Assembly: GCF_001592945.1 (NCBI RefSeq)
Contig: NZ_LRPB01000034.1
Span: 186,001-250,000, forward strand
DNA length: 64,000 nucleotides
Direction of reading: 5' to 3'
From: Roseivirga seohaensis
GTDB lineage: Bacteria; Bacteroidota; Bacteroidia; Cytophagales; Cyclobacteriaceae
Positions 1-26,241 of this stretch are shown here, in pieces. The notes below the pieces were generated by a model that saw nothing but the letters and a program-made list of their open reading frames with translations, was not told where the DNA came from and searched no databases. The position numbers were made by a program, and so were the translations under genes. Within the stretch, counting starts at the first letter, position 1; the number at the start of each line of letters is the position of its first letter.

Positions 1-1478
1 AAGTGATCTTCATCACCCAAGATATCGGAAAGAATAGCATATTTTCCTGTTTCAGCATCTGAGATCATCCCCATTGCGATACCTGAAACCGGACCAGAAA
101 TCTTAACACCTGTATCCATTAATGATAATGAACCTGCACAAACTGTTGCCATTGAAGACGAACCATTTGACTCAAGAATATCTGATACTAAACGAATTGT
201 ATAAGGGTTCTTATCCGCAGGAGGTAATACTTTTTTCAATGCACGCATTGCAAGGTTACCGTGTCCTACTTCTCTTCTACCAGGCCCTCTGTTTGGTCTT
301 ACTTCACCAGTTGAGAAACCAGGGAAGTTATAGTGTAGAATAAATTTGTTTGTGCCGTGCTCTGTAGCACCATCAATCATTTGCTCATCTAACTTAGTAC
401 CTAAAGTACAAGAAGTCAAAGATTGGGTTTCACCTCTAGTGAATACTGCAGAACCGTGTGCAGAAGGTAAATAATCTACCTCAGACCAAATTTGTCTGAT
501 TTCATTGAATTCTCTACCGTCTAGTCTTTTGCTTGAATCTAAAACGAAGTTTCTAGCAGCAGTCTTGTGTATTTTTTTGAAGTACTGGCCAATCAAGAAT
601 GAATCATACTCATGATCTTCAGGAAGAGCGTCTACCCATTCTGTTTTGATTGCCTTTACATCACTACTTCTGATGGATTTATCAGCAGTTTGTTTTGCTA
701 CCGAAGCGTAAAGCTTGTCGTAAAGCTCAGACTTCATTTTTTCGTAAAGCGCTTCATCATTATTTTCATGAGAATATTCACGCTTTTCTGTTTTGCCAGC
801 CTCAACTGCTAATTCGATTTGAGCTTGGCATTGGATTTTAATGGCATCGTGAGCAATTTTCATTGCTTCTAGCATATCGGCTTCAGAGACTTCGCTCATT
901 TCACCTTCTACCATCATAATATTATTGATATCGGCAGCTACGATAATCTCAAGTTCAGATGCCTCGGCAATTTCTTTACTTGGATTTAACTTGAACTGAC
1001 CTTCGTGTTTTACTACTCTAATTTCAGAAATAGGTCCGTTAAAAGGAATATCAGAAACAGATAGAGCAGCAGAAGCAGCAAGTGCAGCAAGTGCATCAGG
1101 CTGTACATCTTTATCATAAGAGATCATTGAGATCATTACCTGCGTGTCGGCATGGTAATCATCAGGGAAAAGAGGACGAAGTGCTCTATCTACCAAACGG
1201 CAAATCAATACTTCATGGTCTGACAATCTACCTTCTCTTTTCAAAAATCCTCCAGGAATTTTTCCTGCAGAAGCAAATTTTTCTTGATAGTCGACAGAGA
1301 GAGGAAGAAAGTCGACATTTTCTTTAGCATCTTGAGCAGATACTACTGTGGCGAGTAACATGGTGTCACCCATTCTTACTACAGCCGAACCATCGGCTTG
1401 TTTCGCTAGCTTACCCGTTTCAATCGTTATGATTTGACCATCAGGCATTTTGATGGCTTTAGTTATTACATTCAGCAT
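1..1478 (-). CDS. pnp: Polyribonucleotide nucleotidyltransferase (PNPase), 3' end cut by window edge
   Basis: Phosphorolytic 3'-5' exoribonuclease of the RNA degradation machinery. I translated the open frame from an ATG at 1478 down to base 1; it starts [15 protein letters not shown] and gives about 492 residues without a stop. It covers the first RNase PH domain ([12 protein letters not shown], then [14 protein letters not shown]), the all-alpha linker, and much of the second RNase PH domain ([18 protein letters not shown], then [17 protein letters not shown]). The C-terminal part of the second core and the KH and S1 RNA-binding domains lie beyond the left edge, since the full protein is usually about 700 residues. 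It sits directly downstream of rpsO, the same order as in many bacteria. A hairpin in the rpsO-pnp spacer may end rpsO transcripts or serve as a processing site. Identification is secure; the protein is partial only because of the window. Confidence 0.97.
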
Positions 1479-1541
1479 AAAATATTTTTTGTGTAGTACA
1501 GCGCGGGGAGATCAAAAACAACCAGCAGTATGCGAATAAGT

Positions 1542-1574
1542 AAAGAAGGGAATCCGCATTGAACTCCCTTCTTT
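1542..1574 (-). terminator. Hairpin between rpsO and pnp
   Basis: The arms AAAGAAGGGA (1542-1551) and TCCCTTCTTT (1565-1574) form a perfect 10-bp stem with a 13-base loop, directly after the rpsO stop. No long U tract follows the stem on the minus strand, so read-through or RNase processing is as likely as strong termination. In E. coli the rpsO-pnp spacer holds an RNase III-cleaved hairpin used in pnp autoregulation; whether this one is equivalent is inference. Confidence 0.6.
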
Positions 1575-1586
1575 AAATTACTTGTA

Positions 1587-1862
1587 TTACTTACGTAAGT
1601 TCAATTCAGCAATGATTGCTCTATATCTCTCAATATCAACTTTGATAAGATAATCCAACAATCTTCTTCTTTTACCTACTAATTTAAGTAGTCCAGTTCT
1701 TGAAGAGTGATCTTTTTTATTGCTCTTCAAATGTTCTGTAAGGTGATTGATACGGTAGGTAAAAAGTGCAATTTGAGACTCAGGAGACCCTGTGTCATTT
1801 TTTGCCTTTAACCGACCATGATTCTCAAACAACTCAACTTTCTTTTCGCTTGATAAATACAT
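1587..1862 (-). CDS. rpsO: 30S ribosomal protein S15
   Basis: Primary 16S rRNA-binding protein of the small-subunit platform. At 91 residues it matches the usual 88-90 of the family. The family signature is visible: [20 protein letters not shown] early on, then [28 protein letters not shown] in the centre, and a tail containing [13 protein letters not shown]. The start ATG at 1862 is preceded by a good Bacteroidota-type promoter at 1903-1934, so rpsO is probably the first gene of an rpsO-pnp unit. The gene is separated from the upstream LptF/G gene by about 70 bases. Nothing is unusual in it. Confidence 0.98.
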
Positions 1863-21694: not shown

Positions 21695-22822
21695 TCAATT
21701 GGCTTTTGAAACATCCTCCCACATCAACTCCGCTGTTCGTACCGAAGCACCAGTACCACCCATTTTGACTTCGAGTTCATCATAGTCTTTAAGCATTTGC
21801 GCTCTCTTCTCCCCTTTTAGAATCAAATTTAATTCTTTGACCAAGCGCTTTTCGTTGAGGTCTTCTCCAATTAATTCTTGCACCGCCATTCGGTCTAAAA
21901 TCAAATTGACCATACATATAAATTTGATCTTAACGATTCGCTTAAGCAGATGATAAGTAACATAACCGGGCTTGTAGCACACCACTTGTGGTACTTTAAA
22001 CAAGGCGGTTTCTAAAGTAGCCGTTCCTGAAGTCACCAAGGCGGCAGTGGCATTATTCAGAATATCGTAAGTTCGGTTGAATATGAGTTCAACCTTATCA
22101 TCCATATAGGTTTGGTAAAAAGTCTTGTCAATCGTTTCGGAACCAGCAATTACGAACTGATGATCTGGAAAATGTTTTACCGCCTTTAGCATCGCAGGTA
22201 GCTTCGTTTTTATTTCTTGTTTTCTGCTGCCGGGTAAAAGTGCAATAATGGGCTTTTCAGTAAGGTTGAATTCCTTCCTCAGTTCGTCCGAACCTAATAA
22301 ACTAGGCTTACGCTGTTCTAAAGCATCTAAAATGGGGTGGCCAACATAGTCTACATCGTAGCCATATGATTTATAAAAGTCCTTTTCGAATGGAAGGATA
22401 GCAAAAACCCTGTGGCACCATTGGTGAATAGTGTGTACGCGTTTTTGTTTCCATGCCCAAGCTTGTGGAAGAATGTAATAGTAAATTCTAGTAGGAAGTT
22501 TTGATAACCGTACATATTTAGCAATACGCAGATTAAAACCCGAATTATCGATCAAAATCAACACATCCGGTTTAAAAGTCATAATATCATTTTCGCAGAG
22601 GGTGAAGTTTTTCTTGATGGTTCTGATGTTCCAAAGCACGTTGAAAATCCCCATAAAGGAGGAATCCTTAAAATGACGCACCATTTCATTGGTTTCCGCT
22701 TGCATTTTATCGCCACCCCAAACCCTGAAAAAAGCATTGGAATCACGCATTTTCAGCTGCTTCATTAAGTTGGCAGCATGCATATCGCCCGAGGCCTCTC
22801 CTGCTATGATATAGTATTTCAT
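21695..22822 (-). CDS. lpxB: Lipid-A-disaccharide synthase
   Basis: GT19-family glycosyltransferase that joins UDP-diacylglucosamine and lipid X to form the lipid A disaccharide at the inner membrane. Diagnostic stretches are MKYYIIAGEASGDMHAANLM at the start, RIYYYILPQAWAWKQKRV, VDYVGHPILD, IALLPGSRKQEIKTKLP and the end of the nucleotide site AALVTSGTATLETALFKVPQVVCYK. Its 375 residues match E. coli LpxB (382). It is isolated from other lipid A genes here and is convergent with the YdeI-like gene. Upstream lies the REP-like cluster. Confidence 0.97.
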   Translation of the reverse strand: MKYYIIAGEASGDMHAANLMKQLKMRDSNAFFRVWGGDKMQAETNEMVRHFKDSSFMGIFNVLWNIRTIKKNFTLCENDIMTFKPDVLILIDNSGFNLRIAKYVRLSKLPTRIYYYILPQAWAWKQKRVHTIHQWCHRVFAILPFEKDFYKSYGYDVDYVGHPILDALEQRKPSLLGSDELRKEFNLTEKPIIALLPGSRKQEIKTKLPAMLKAVKHFPDHQFVIAGSETIDKTFYQTYMDDKVELIFNRTYDILNNATAALVTSGTATLETALFKVPQVVCYKPGYVTYHLLKRIVKIKFICMVNLILDRMAVQELIGEDLNEKRLVKELNLILKGEKRAQMLKDYDELEVKMGGTGASVRTAELMWEDVSKAN

Positions 22823-22897
22823 ATTTCGGTTCGAAGTTCTATGTTCTTAGGCAATTATCAAATGTTATTTGTGAGAAGGTAATTAATCAATAAAGGG

Positions 22898-23296
22898 TCG
22901 CTCCTACGGAGCTTAATGGTATTGGTTTGCCTTGGTGCTACAAACAGTTCGCCCCGATGGGGCTTTTTTACAGGTATCCATCTGTTACAAATAAAGAATA
23001 GGTTGCCCCGCGAGGGGGCTAAACAGGAAATAAATTCATAGGCTACTCATCTAGTTATCTACCTATTAACCAATCAATCGCTTAAGAAATCAATCTCAAT
23101 ATTAGACAATCATTAAAAAAGTGGTCATAGGCTAAGAAAAAAAGGATTTCCGAATCGGGTTTTACCTAATCTTGCGAATTAGATCAGTAACCCAAAAAAT
23201 CATTTAACATTATCATGAAACCCCATCGGGGTGATCCGTTTGTAGATAATCGAACGTGAAATTTCATACAACAAGCCCCAGCGGGGCGAACCAAAG
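22898..23296. repeat. Cluster of REP-like palindromes in opposed orientation
   Basis: This gene-free stretch between lpxB and the M16 protease holds five G+C-rich short palindromes in AT-rich DNA. They are GCTCCTACGGAGC (22900-22912), GCCCCGATGGGGC (22951-22963), GCCCCGCGAGGGGGC (23005-23019), CCCCATCGGGG (23221-23231) and GCCCCAGCGGGGC (23275-23287). The second carries a left flank CTACAAACAGTTC, and the fourth carries nearly its reverse complement (GTGATCCGTTTGTAG). The left three and right two thus face each other around about 200 bases of unremarkable AT-rich DNA. It is the pattern of REP/BIME-type or MITE-like elements. No transposase is present. I see nothing else in the 570-base gap apart from the terminator at 23326. 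Confidence 0.7.
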
Positions 23297-23325
23297 ATTA
23301 ATTCAAAGATCATCGGTATTAACAG

Positions 23326-23357
23326 AAAAAGGCTCCCAGATTAATCTGGAAGCCTTT
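23326..23357 (-). terminator. Terminator after the M16 protease gene
   Basis: On the minus strand AGGCTTCCAGAT pairs with ATCTGGGAGCCT (one G-U), followed by TTTTTC. Confidence 0.85.
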
Positions 23358-23391
23358 ACAATGTATTAGTATCCGTTCTTAAAGAGGAAAC

Positions 23392-26241
23392 TTATTTCTT
23401 CTTAAGTTCTAACTTTTCGTCTTTTGGATTGACTACAATTGGCTTTCCTAAACCTGTATTTTTCAAAAGGTCCAATTGCGTTTTACCATCTCCCACAACC
23501 ACATAAATCAGTTTATCTGGATTCATATATTCTCCAATGATCTCTTTAGCATCTTCAGAAGTCATTGATTTTAACCTTTCTTCATCCTTTTTAATGTAGT
23601 CCATTGGAAGGTTGTATGTAGATATATTCTGAAGAATTCCTACCAAGCTTCCAAGAGTTTCATATGATTGCGTGTTGCTTCTCAAAATTGTTGTTCTGGT
23701 GCTTTCCATATCTTCTTCTGAGAAGTTCTTTCCGTAGTTATCAAGTATTTCTTTGAAAAGATCGACAGACTCTTTTGTTACATTACTTCTTACACTGGAA
23801 GAGGCAGTAAACGGTGCTCCGTTCATGTTTCTACTAAAGCCAGAGTAAGCACCGTAAGTGTATCCTTTTTCGAGTCTCAGTTGTTTGAAAAGAATAGACC
23901 CTGAACCATCTCCTAATCGGTAATTGGCCACTTCAGCCGCAGCAAAATCTTCGTTATCACCATTCATGCTTATGGTACCAATATTTATAACCGACTGTTT
24001 AGCATCTGGGTAATCAACAAAGTATATTCTAGAACCTTCGTCTGCAGTTTTAATTTCATACTCAGGGAATTCTACATCCTTGGCTTCCCACTTATCGAAT
24101 CTCTTTAAAGAATTCATAACAGTCGGCTCATCTAATGCGCCCACAAAATGGAACGAAGCCAATGATGGTGAGAAGTTCTTATTGTAGTAGTCTTTCAAAT
24201 CGTCTAAGGTAATATTGCTAACCGTTTCGGTTGTTCCCGAGGTTGGGTAAGCGAAGATGTGCTCTTTTCCATAAAGCACCTTATTGAAAACATTTGACGC
24301 AATAGCATTTGGGTTTGCGGCACTCTGCTGAATTGAGTTTAAGGCGGATTTTTTAACTCTGTCAAACTCTCCTTCATCCCATCTTGGCTCGAATAAAATT
24401 TCCTCAACTAAATCTAGTACTTGATCATAGTTTTTAGCTAATGAACTACCACTAATTGTGATGTACTCTTTTGAAGCAAAAACACTAACTCTAGCGCCTA
24501 GTTGCCCAATGGCCTCTTGAAGTTCTAATGGAGTTTTATTGGCAGTTCCTTCCATTAACATGTTATCTAACAAGGCGGCAGTTCCAATCTTGGCTGGATC
24601 ATCTAAGAACATTCCTCCTTTAATTCTAAGGCTAAACTGCACCATTGGCAGCTCATCTTGATAAATATGGAATACTTTCATTCCGTTATCTCGCTTGCTA
24701 TTATTAATCTTAGGAGGGTCAAAACTAAGCGTTCCTTTTAACGGAGGCGCTACACTACGATCAATTTTTGAGGCGGTTTTCTCAAATGTCACCCCTTGTT
24801 CATAGGGATTGTCTTCGGCTCCTTGAACAATGGCCTCTTCTACTACTGAAGCTTTTTCTGAGCCGTCCAATACCAATTCTTTTTGTCCTACTGGTACAAA
24901 ACTGGTCGCCAAGTAGTTTTTATCTTTAATGTACTTATTGTACACCTTCATGATTTCCTCTCGAGTTACACTTTGAGATTTCTTTAAGTCTTCAACAATA
25001 AAACCGGGATCGCCAGCAAAAGTATTATAATTGGCTAACGAAGATGCCTTACCAAACACACTTGACATTCCGTTGTAAAACCCTGTTTCTTGACCAATTT
25101 TTATTCTTGTTAAGTCAGCGTCAGAAAAACCTTCCGATTCAAACCTTTTTAAACCTTCAAAAATTGCAGCTCTTAAATCATTCAAATTCACGCCATCAAA
25201 AGCTCTAGACCCAATCGAAAATGTTCCAGCGATTTCTGCTGAGGAATTATAAGCAAAAACGCCAGGTGCCAACTTTTTCTCTTCAACAACCACCTTATAC
25301 AAAGCAGATTTTTTTCCATCAGTTAATACTTGCCCAAGCATATTTAAAGCCCAATAATCTGGGTGATATTGCTCTACGGTTGGCCATGTCATTTCTAAAT
25401 CAGGAAGGTTAGCGAATTTATCTTCGTGATAAAACAATTTAGTTTGGTCAAGAACAGCAGATTTCGGTTTTATTGCCTCTACTTCAGCTCTTGGCTCAAA
25501 TTCGCCAAAGTATTTTTCTACAAGTGTTTTAACCTCAGCTTGCTCCACATCGCCAGCAATCACTAAAGTTGCGTTGTTTGGGCCATACCACTTGTCGTAA
25601 AACTCTTTCACATCGGCTACGGTAGCATTTTGCAAATCTTCTAAGCTTCCAATCACATCCCAGCTATAAGGGTGCCCTTCTGGGTAAAGATTTTTCAGTT
25701 TTACATATTCTTTGTGGCCATATGGCCTGTTGTCTACCCCTTGTCTTTTTTCATTCTTTACTACTTGCTTTTCGTTTTCAAGTCCCCAGTCGGAAACGGT
25801 ATTGATGAAAAAGCCCATTCTATCAGATTCCATCCAAAGCATTTGCTCTACAGCATCGCTTGGCACTGTTTCATAGTAGATAGTTCCGTCAGTCCAGGTT
25901 CCTCCGTTGAAAGTTCCTCCTAAGTCGTTTACATTTTTAATAAAGTTACCTGCCCCTACGTTTTCTGAATTTTGGAAAAGCATGTGTTCAAAAAAGTGAG
26001 CAAAGCCAGTTTTCCCAGGTTTTTCGCGGTTAGAACCTACATGATACAATACCGCTACTGCCACTTTAGGGTCAGAATTATCTTTATGAACGACCACCTC
26101 TAGCCCATTGTCTAGTGTGAATTTTTCATAGTTCAATTTAAATTCTGTACTCTCCTGCTCTTCAACCCCACCAGTACAGGCGGAAAGAATAATCACGAGC
26201 GACAAGAATGCTACAAGTCGATGTTTCAATAATGTTTTCAT
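23392..26241 (-). CDS. M16 family (pitrilysin-type) zinc metallopeptidase, lipoprotein
   Basis: A 949-residue double-unit peptidase of the M16 family. A signal peptide ends in a lipobox (LSAC, cysteine 22), so it is probably membrane-anchored in the periplasm. The inverted zinc motif HFFEH lies at 82-86 within KTGFAHFFEHMLFQ, and the downstream glutamate site is in ENEKQVVKNEKRQG. The second M16 unit starts near residue 520 (KRDNGMKVFHIYQDELPMVQF) and lacks an HxxEH, as expected for the regulatory half. The family degrades peptides in the periplasm; the substrate is unknown. It is a single-gene unit with its own terminator. Confidence 0.95.
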   Translation of the reverse strand: MKTLLKHRLVAFLSLVIILSACTGGVEEQESTEFKLNYEKFTLDNGLEVVVHKDNSDPKVAVAVLYHVGSNREKPGKTGFAHFFEHMLFQNSENVGAGNFIKNVNDLGGTFNGGTWTDGTIYYETVPSDAVEQMLWMESDRMGFFINTVSDWGLENEKQVVKNEKRQGVDNRPYGHKEYVKLKNLYPEGHPYSWDVIGSLEDLQNATVADVKEFYDKWYGPNNATLVIAGDVEQAEVKTLVEKYFGEFEPRAEVEAIKPKSAVLDQTKLFYHEDKFANLPDLEMTWPTVEQYHPDYWALNMLGQVLTDGKKSALYKVVVEEKKLAPGVFAYNSSAEIAGTFSIGSRAFDGVNLNDLRAAIFEGLKRFESEGFSDADLTRIKIGQETGFYNGMSSVFGKASSLANYNTFAGDPGFIVEDLKKSQSVTREEIMKVYNKYIKDKNYLATSFVPVGQKELVLDGSEKASVVEEAIVQGAEDNPYEQGVTFEKTASKIDRSVAPPLKGTLSFDPPKINNSKRDNGMKVFHIYQDELPMVQFSLRIKGGMFLDDPAKIGTAALLDNMLMEGTANKTPLELQEAIGQLGARVSVFASKEYITISGSSLAKNYDQVLDLVEEILFEPRWDEGEFDRVKKSALNSIQQSAANPNAIASNVFNKVLYGKEHIFAYPTSGTTETVSNITLDDLKDYYNKNFSPSLASFHFVGALDEPTVMNSLKRFDKWEAKDVEFPEYEIKTADEGSRIYFVDYPDAKQSVINIGTISMNGDNEDFAAAEVANYRLGDGSGSILFKQLRLEKGYTYGAYSGFSRNMNGAPFTASSSVRSNVTKESVDLFKEILDNYGKNFSEEDMESTRTTILRSNTQSYETLGSLVGILQNISTYNLPMDYIKKDEERLKSMTSEDAKEIIGEYMNPDKLIYVVVGDGKTQLDLLKNTGLGKPIVVNPKDEKLELKKK

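Follow-up and report, generated by a model that had tools for sequence, protein, structure and literature searches.

What are the short G+C-rich palindromes that lie in the intergenic gap beside lpxB in Roseivirga seohaensis, and how did they come to lie there? The window, that is, the whole stretch of 64,000 nucleotides that was analysed, contains a gap of 569 bp (22823-23391) that separates two minus-strand genes, lpxB and one for an M16 peptidase. The sequence-only reading had seen in this gene-free gap five such palindromes, three pointing one way and two the other, and had taken them for a BIME- or MITE-like element whose transposase, a REP-associated tyrosine transposase (RAYT), lies elsewhere in the genome. 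All five could be located (22900-22912, 22951-22963, 23005-23019, 23220-23232 and 23275-23287), each with a perfect 5-bp stem. The gap contains no open reading frame of 80 aa or more and no remnant of a transposase gene (tnpA) at E<=10, and Rfam at gathering scores returned only a tRNA across the window. The second and fourth units, described as near reverse complements, are 28 nt long (22938-22965 and 23218-23245) and 86% complementary to each other, and the count of three palindromes in minus and two in plus orientation holds provided that the degenerate hairpin at 23005 is read as minus, as judged by eye from its flank. By themselves, the bare palindromes of the window are not compelling: GCCCCNNNGGGGC, with up to 2 mismatches, gave 11 matches in the window, mildly above the 6.67 expected, and 10 of 100 shuffles equalled that number.

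Four of the five palindromes belong to a larger unit, being parts of two opposite-orientation copies of a module of about 84 nt. In the aligned copies this module consists of hairpin 1 (5-bp stem, 3-nt loop), 6 nt, the tag TTTGTAG or a near version of it, a little-conserved spacer of 23-31 nt, and hairpin 2. The two hairpins stand in direct order, with the (R)TAG tag 3' of hairpin 1; hairpin 2 often has GACC 3' of it and mostly lacks the tag. Scores below refer to model R1, built from 14 modules of this genome away from tnpA, the two tnpA-adjacent ones being excluded, and to model R2, built from other genomes; both window modules are among the 14 building copies of R1. The features of the locus are as follows.

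21695-22822, minus strand: lpxB (lipid-A-disaccharide synthase), neighbour gene, Pfam PF02684
22886-22967, minus strand: module 1 (hairpin 1, TTTGTAG tag, spacer, hairpin 2), R1 79.2 bits, E 1.8e-20, R2 71.7 bits
about 22890-23310, no strand: DNA absent from the orthologous gap of two relatives (G004 and G014), extent approximate
22900-22912, minus strand: hairpin 2 of module 1, GCTCC-GTA-GGAGC on the minus strand
22938-22944, minus strand: tag TTTGTAG of module 1, CTACAAA on the plus strand
22951-22963, minus strand: hairpin 1 of module 1, GCCCC-ATC-GGGGC on the minus strand
22968-23215, no strand: inner 248 bp between the window modules, without a tnpA remnant and unmatched by six other inner stretches
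23005-23019, minus strand (by eye): third, degenerate hairpin, without an R1 match at E<=1
23216-23301, plus strand: module 2, in opposite orientation, R1 69.5 bits, E 9.2e-18
23220-23232, plus strand: hairpin 1 of module 2, ACCCC-ATC-GGGGT
23239-23245, plus strand: tag TTTGTAG of module 2
23275-23287, plus strand: hairpin 2 of module 2, GCCCC-AGC-GGGGC
23328-23357, no strand: palindrome resembling a terminator, next to the M16 gene at its 3' end, with similar sequence in both relatives (G004 and G014)
23392-26241, minus strand: M16 peptidase gene, neighbour gene, Pfam PF05193 and PF00675

The module recurs throughout the genome, which dismisses the possibility that the units are single-copy local structure. 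Across the 4.15 Mb of the assembly (48 contigs), CGCCCCNNNGGGGC was found 13 times as an exact match, two of the matches overlapping, against 0 for the reversed control, and a 26-nt hairpin-plus-tail pattern, at up to 3 mismatches, was found 20 times against 2 for its control. Seven of 23 hairpin-plus-tail candidates were omitted from the alignment (three chance-like, one a single hairpin, two with another second hairpin and one a reverse reading). The genome carries at least 16 modules, and a relative as many as at least 46, these counts being lower bounds from at most 77 candidates scored per genome; further copies lie on contigs C1, C3, C22, C33, C46 and C47. Among the 14 dispersed modules of this genome the tag is exactly TTTGTAG in 8, and all 14 have G at the place that differs from TTTATAG. 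In 28 of 59 genomes, comprising this one and relatives, R1 detects modules. Three loci on contig C46 of the same genome (L009, L011 and L013) are dispersed repeats, 73-83% alike, in which the hairpin-plus-tag unit is combined with other palindromes; L009 and L011 have 289 bp in common.

The case for the modules is based on this recurrence and on compensatory changes in the stems, folding energy being weak evidence: single-strand folding of modules was barely better than that of shuffled DNA (z -0.95 to -1.90). Stem pairing reaches 97.9% of cells across the first 14 modules, a set chosen partly for good stems. Among 146 distinct modules from a set of named genomes, all 10 stem pairs vary on both sides, and cells with double changes number 306, versus a shuffle mean of 88 and at most 57 when partners were slid, in an alignment that was fitted to the module model and thus favours the structure.

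Comparison with relatives of the same genus suggests that the cluster was gained as extra DNA. In G004 and G014, whose lpxB genes are 91% and 90% identical to that of the window, the orthologous gap measures about 150 bp and the whole cluster is absent. The terminator-like palindrome at 23328-23357 is not part of the insert, since its counterpart is present in both relatives. Insertion in the lineage of the window is a simpler reading than loss in the relatives. At the site of a second cluster, on contig C22, no module is present in G004, G014 or G006; there the G014 sequence runs on almost without a break, and other DNA stands in its place in G004 and G006. A 9-bp direct repeat, TTATGTTTT, flanks the C22 insert, a single and unproven case. 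The C1 and C47 sites, two of the four examined, are occupied in relatives with differing numbers of modules. In the G004 counterpart of the C22 site (L215, on contig C2 of that genome), a stretch of about 50 bp is repeated at the borders of the different DNA, as seen by eye.

An insert of this kind could be a single MITE of about 400 bp that moved as a unit, inverted arrangement included; the sequence-only reading had called its roughly 400-base unit BIME- or MITE-like. The absence of the entire stretch in both relatives would fit such an element, as would the similar inner lengths of the window cluster (248 bp), the C22 cluster (254 bp) and an array in G004 (254 bp, twice). The inner sequences themselves speak against it: six others were compared with that of the window and none matched it, and other (-)(+) module pairs lie about 15 to 160 bp apart. 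The inner stretches of C22 and C1 match those of G004 weakly and over short lengths only, and the G004 pair is itself a tandem copy. We therefore regard movement of the whole stretch as one MITE as unlikely. What stood of the earlier proposal is that the cluster is REP-like, dispersed and non-autonomous, with an empty site in two relatives; what did not stand is the repeat unit, which is the module of about 84 nt and its inverted pairs rather than the stretch of about 400 bp. G004 has a tandem duplication of 566 bp, 93% identical, with inverted modules within (L262, G004:C45:644200-646000).

A candidate enzyme is encoded in the same genome. Three matches to Y1_Tnp (PF01797) were found, two of them above the cut-off, and one of the three, a close copy at G000:C33:314157-314621, lies some 105 kb away from the cluster in the window. 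The TnpA that it encodes scores 85.5 bits against PF01797 (cut-off 23), fails the REP-transposase model NF047646 (REP_Tyr_transpos; 29.7 bits, cut-off 80) and scores above the cut-off of the IS200/IS605 model (58.7 against 55 bits). Among 20 sequences of the family, both histidines of the HxH motif and the tyrosine are present in all 20; of the Y---Q--HH motif, all 20 have Y, Q and the first H, and 19 have the second H, and a WQ motif is also present. The family resembles transposases in the PDB, including ISHp608 TnpA and 2xm3, which we take to be ISDra2 TnpA. Module hairpins lie directly 3' of the resident tnpA, with none 5' of it, and R1 matches the modules there at 27.0 and 19.3 bits; some hairpins at this locus (L015) reach 7 bp. 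The tag directly beside the only close tnpA is TTTATAG in this genome and in two close relatives, whereas the sampled dispersed modules read TTTGTAG. A second module beside the G014 tnpA reads TTTGTAG, and the G014 copy of the gene has an in-frame stop. Thus a related Y1 gene does lie elsewhere in the genome, as had been supposed, but it is not a canonical RAYT: it falls short of the RAYT model and has the Y---Q--HH motif. The repeats are without the canonical 5' GT[AG]G foot, and the tag beside the gene differs from that of the dispersed modules.

In many Bacteroidota, modules flank homologues of this gene in a fixed orientation. Among 30 tnpA loci, 16 have a module within 130 bp, and the modules are in plus orientation upstream in 12 of 12 cases and in minus orientation downstream in 9 of 9, a count that omits one overlapping match far from the gene (L123) out of 62. 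Those 62 R1 matches fall in 100 kb of tnpA loci, versus 2 weak matches in 119 kb of 29 lpxB loci at the same E-value limit. A set of named genomes yielded 80 tnpA loci, kept from at least 579 relatives and including Flavobacterium, Chryseobacterium, Pedobacter, Mucilaginibacter and Ignavibacteria records. Here 73 of the 80 loci have one or more modules at E<=0.1 with R1; seven have none at that limit (L142, L145, L164, L168, L178, L205 and L206). The nearest module is plus upstream in 48 of 54 cases and minus downstream in 45 of 50, with modules on both sides at 39 of 80 loci. The other orientation accounts for 11 of the 104 nearest modules, and 15 of the 80 loci are without a module within 130 bp; the 237 matches in this set became 232 once overlaps were removed. 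Read in order, the transposase unit is hairpin 1, tag, hairpin 2, tnpA, hairpin 2', tag', hairpin 1'. Gene-less (+)(-) module pairs are present in G006 and G051. The order in the window is (-)...(+), with hairpin 2 outermost, which is the opposite of the order around tnpA.

Such units could be ordinary insertion sequences of the IS200/IS605 family, and the dispersed modules their deletion derivatives. The resident TnpA passes the model of that family and resembles ISDra2-type and ISHp608 TnpA, and in G026 an element, L245, of which L246 is a near-identical copy, has kept coding sequence for a stretch resembling TnpA residues 139-154, from the C-terminus of the protein. The family shares with the present system a homologous transposase and hairpin-based ends. 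Its members are described, in the available text of PMC2817692, as being without terminal inverted repeats, whereas inverted module pairs form the ends here, and tnpA is close to single copy in the present genome, one close gene being there for at least 16 modules. An ordinary IS200/IS605 origin thus seems very unlikely. The near-identical G026 copies were also considered as markers of element ends and were rejected, as they lie within another repeat with its own inverted ends. In L245, L246 and L247 the module sits within this longer repeat, which has the inverted ends GGCTCTATTNTAAAA...TTTTAGAATAGAGCC; other elements thus seem to carry modules, and L248 and L249 appear to hold another such frame.

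Modules and transposase also occur together. In 59 genomes, with kinship ignored, modules are present in 20 of 23 with a close TnpA (>140 bits) versus 8 of 36 others, and outside the genus, again with kinship ignored, in 9 of 12 versus 7 of 28. Across 198 genomes of the phylum, also without regard to kinship, the figures are 51 of 56 with a TnpA at E<=1e-50 versus 26 of the 142 others, the latter made up of 15 of 39 with weaker TnpA matches only and 11 of 103 with no TnpA match; all of these counts include modules adjoining tnpA itself, and the number of modules per genome is a lower bound, from 77 or 23 candidates scored. TnpA at E<=1e-10 was found in 95 of the 198 sampled Bacteroidota genomes, about half. 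The two modules of one element are more alike than modules across elements (none of 2000 permutations over 31 elements did as well), in a test that took 84 modules above 20 bits in the expected orientation and so says nothing on orientation. The tags of dispersed and adjacent modules also match within a genome (4 of 5000 permutations over 11 genomes), in a comparison that took one module of each kind from every genome and left out G050, which has no adjacent module. The window's trio of genomes is the exception; without it, 8 genomes gave 7 of 5000 permutations.

These results bear on whether the modules are simply host hairpins, such as terminators or elements for RNA stability or gyrase binding, that spread by duplication and have no tie to a transposase. 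The window cluster is intergenic, mobility is here deduced rather than observed, and the module-bearing genomes that have no TnpA match are in keeping with such an origin. Against such an origin speak the fixed inverted order around tnpA, the co-occurrence with TnpA and the similarity of modules within an element, and at orthologous sites of relatives the DNA is missing. Taken together, this leaves the host-hairpin explanation highly improbable.

We conclude, with a probability of roughly 0.8, that the gap holds a non-autonomous REP cluster of a module system associated with a Y1 tnpA, the modules of which have probably been spread in trans. Most probably the module repeat belongs to a mobile repeat family, one that is apparently undescribed. 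Two facts in this genome stand against this conclusion, namely the tag mismatch and the reversed module order; so do the modules in 11 of 103 phylum genomes without a TnpA match and in 8 of 36 relatives without a close TnpA.

Among described systems, a close likeness is to the REPtrons and BIMEs of REP/RAYT (TnpAREP), where in the text available from PMC2817692, PMC6006769 and PMC8266576 a Y1 HUH gene also lies between inverted palindromic repeats that are dispersed as well; there, too, stems covary and repeats resemble those of their own transposase gene. The modules described here have in common with REPtrons the Y1 gene, the inverted flanking repeats (downstream modules only at the gene of this genome) and the dispersed copies; they lack the 5' foot and the basal stem of 7-20 nt, and the enzyme scores below the REP_Tyr_transpos cut-off. 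They differ further in that a TAG begins 10 nt 3' of the 5-bp stem, as opposed to GT[AG]G 0-2 nt 5' of it, in that the module has two hairpins in direct order, and in the Y---Q--HH type of the transposase. A GTAG or GTGG foot at hairpin 1 was found in 0 of 84 modules on the module strand and in 1 of 84 on the other strand, and TAG occupies a fixed 3' place in 66 of 84. The automatic search of Quentin 2018, as its available text gives it, required a basal stem of 7-20 paired nt preceded at 0-2 nt by GTAG or GTGG (PMC6006769), and the lack of that foot, with TAG standing 3' instead, would explain why the modules were missed. The system works like a REPtron yet lies outside the canonical REP definition, and is a widespread REP/transposase variant.

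With subclass 1.2 of TnpAY1, as far as the available text of PMC6006769 describes it, the present enzymes share motifs of the DH[IV]H, WQ and Y---Q--HH type, a length of about 150 aa, low copy number and occurrence in Bacteroidetes, an assignment made by motifs. Table 1 of the same source has 'no' under REP for this subclass, whereas the genes studied here are flanked by modules. GTAG- and CGTC-tagged repeats are likewise short palindromes tagged at one end that occur in dimers and clusters; in the available text of Di Nocera 2013 (PMC3733652), GTAG repeats come from Proteobacteria, Cyanobacteria, Chloroflexi and the PVC group, and from Bacteroidetes only CGTC repeats are given. Palindromes have been counted in two Flavobacterium genomes, with no transposase named in the text available (PMC12306157), and a 'RayT' gene has been named in Chryseobacterium, in an available text in which the whole words 'REP' and 'palindrom' were not found (PMC11194056). 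No account of these modules was found among the records that the literature searches listed, a scope that most subscription papers and preprints lie outside.

As to how the system may operate, we infer that TnpA cuts and moves the modules. The transposase unit, written module(+) - tnpA - module(-), has modules at both ends, and the genomes also contain scattered modules and inverted module pairs that lack the gene. When the DNA is single-stranded, for example on the lagging-strand template, TnpA would bind the folded hairpins, and its tyrosine would cut near the tag, possibly between C and TA in the complement of the TAG tag, which makes CTA a candidate cut site; the enzyme could then move or copy modules in trans. 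According to the available text of PMC8266576, TnpAREP in vitro cuts CT (one enzyme also CA) near the hairpin, with GTAG as a likely guide. The modules of the present genome probably owe their spread either to a TnpA with the matching tag specificity, for which no gene was found here, or to loose specificity of the resident enzyme.

A broader proposal, to which we give even odds, is that this is a class of its own across the phylum, in which subclass 1.2 transposases maintain two-hairpin modules with the tag on the opposite side of the hairpin from that of GTAG REPs, and that in the lineage of the window the modules outlived the matching transposase. If true, this would imply a different strand polarity of recognition and cutting. 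The widespread small HUH transposases of Bacteroidota gain a likely substrate, and a class of intergenic hairpins would be explained; the different tag position and the two-hairpin module would make models of guide and cut site testable independently of the proteobacterial cases. Why bacteria keep nearly single-copy transposases of such a kind is, to our knowledge, an open question in the REP field.

Two further Y1 genes of this genome have direct repeats on both sides. A second, more distant tnpA (L014, G000:C9:20622-22553; gene at 1423-1857, minus strand, with a YIKNQKEHH motif) sits between 53-bp direct repeats that are 96% alike and in which a 36-nt perfect palindrome is present in whole or in part. 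Related palindromes lie close to the C46 clusters, and this tnpA may have a repeat family of its own. A class 2-like Y1 transposase gene with YTHQNP (L016, G000:C2:124856-128029; gene at 1105-1692, minus strand) has imperfect direct repeats on both sides, 71% alike over 112 bp.
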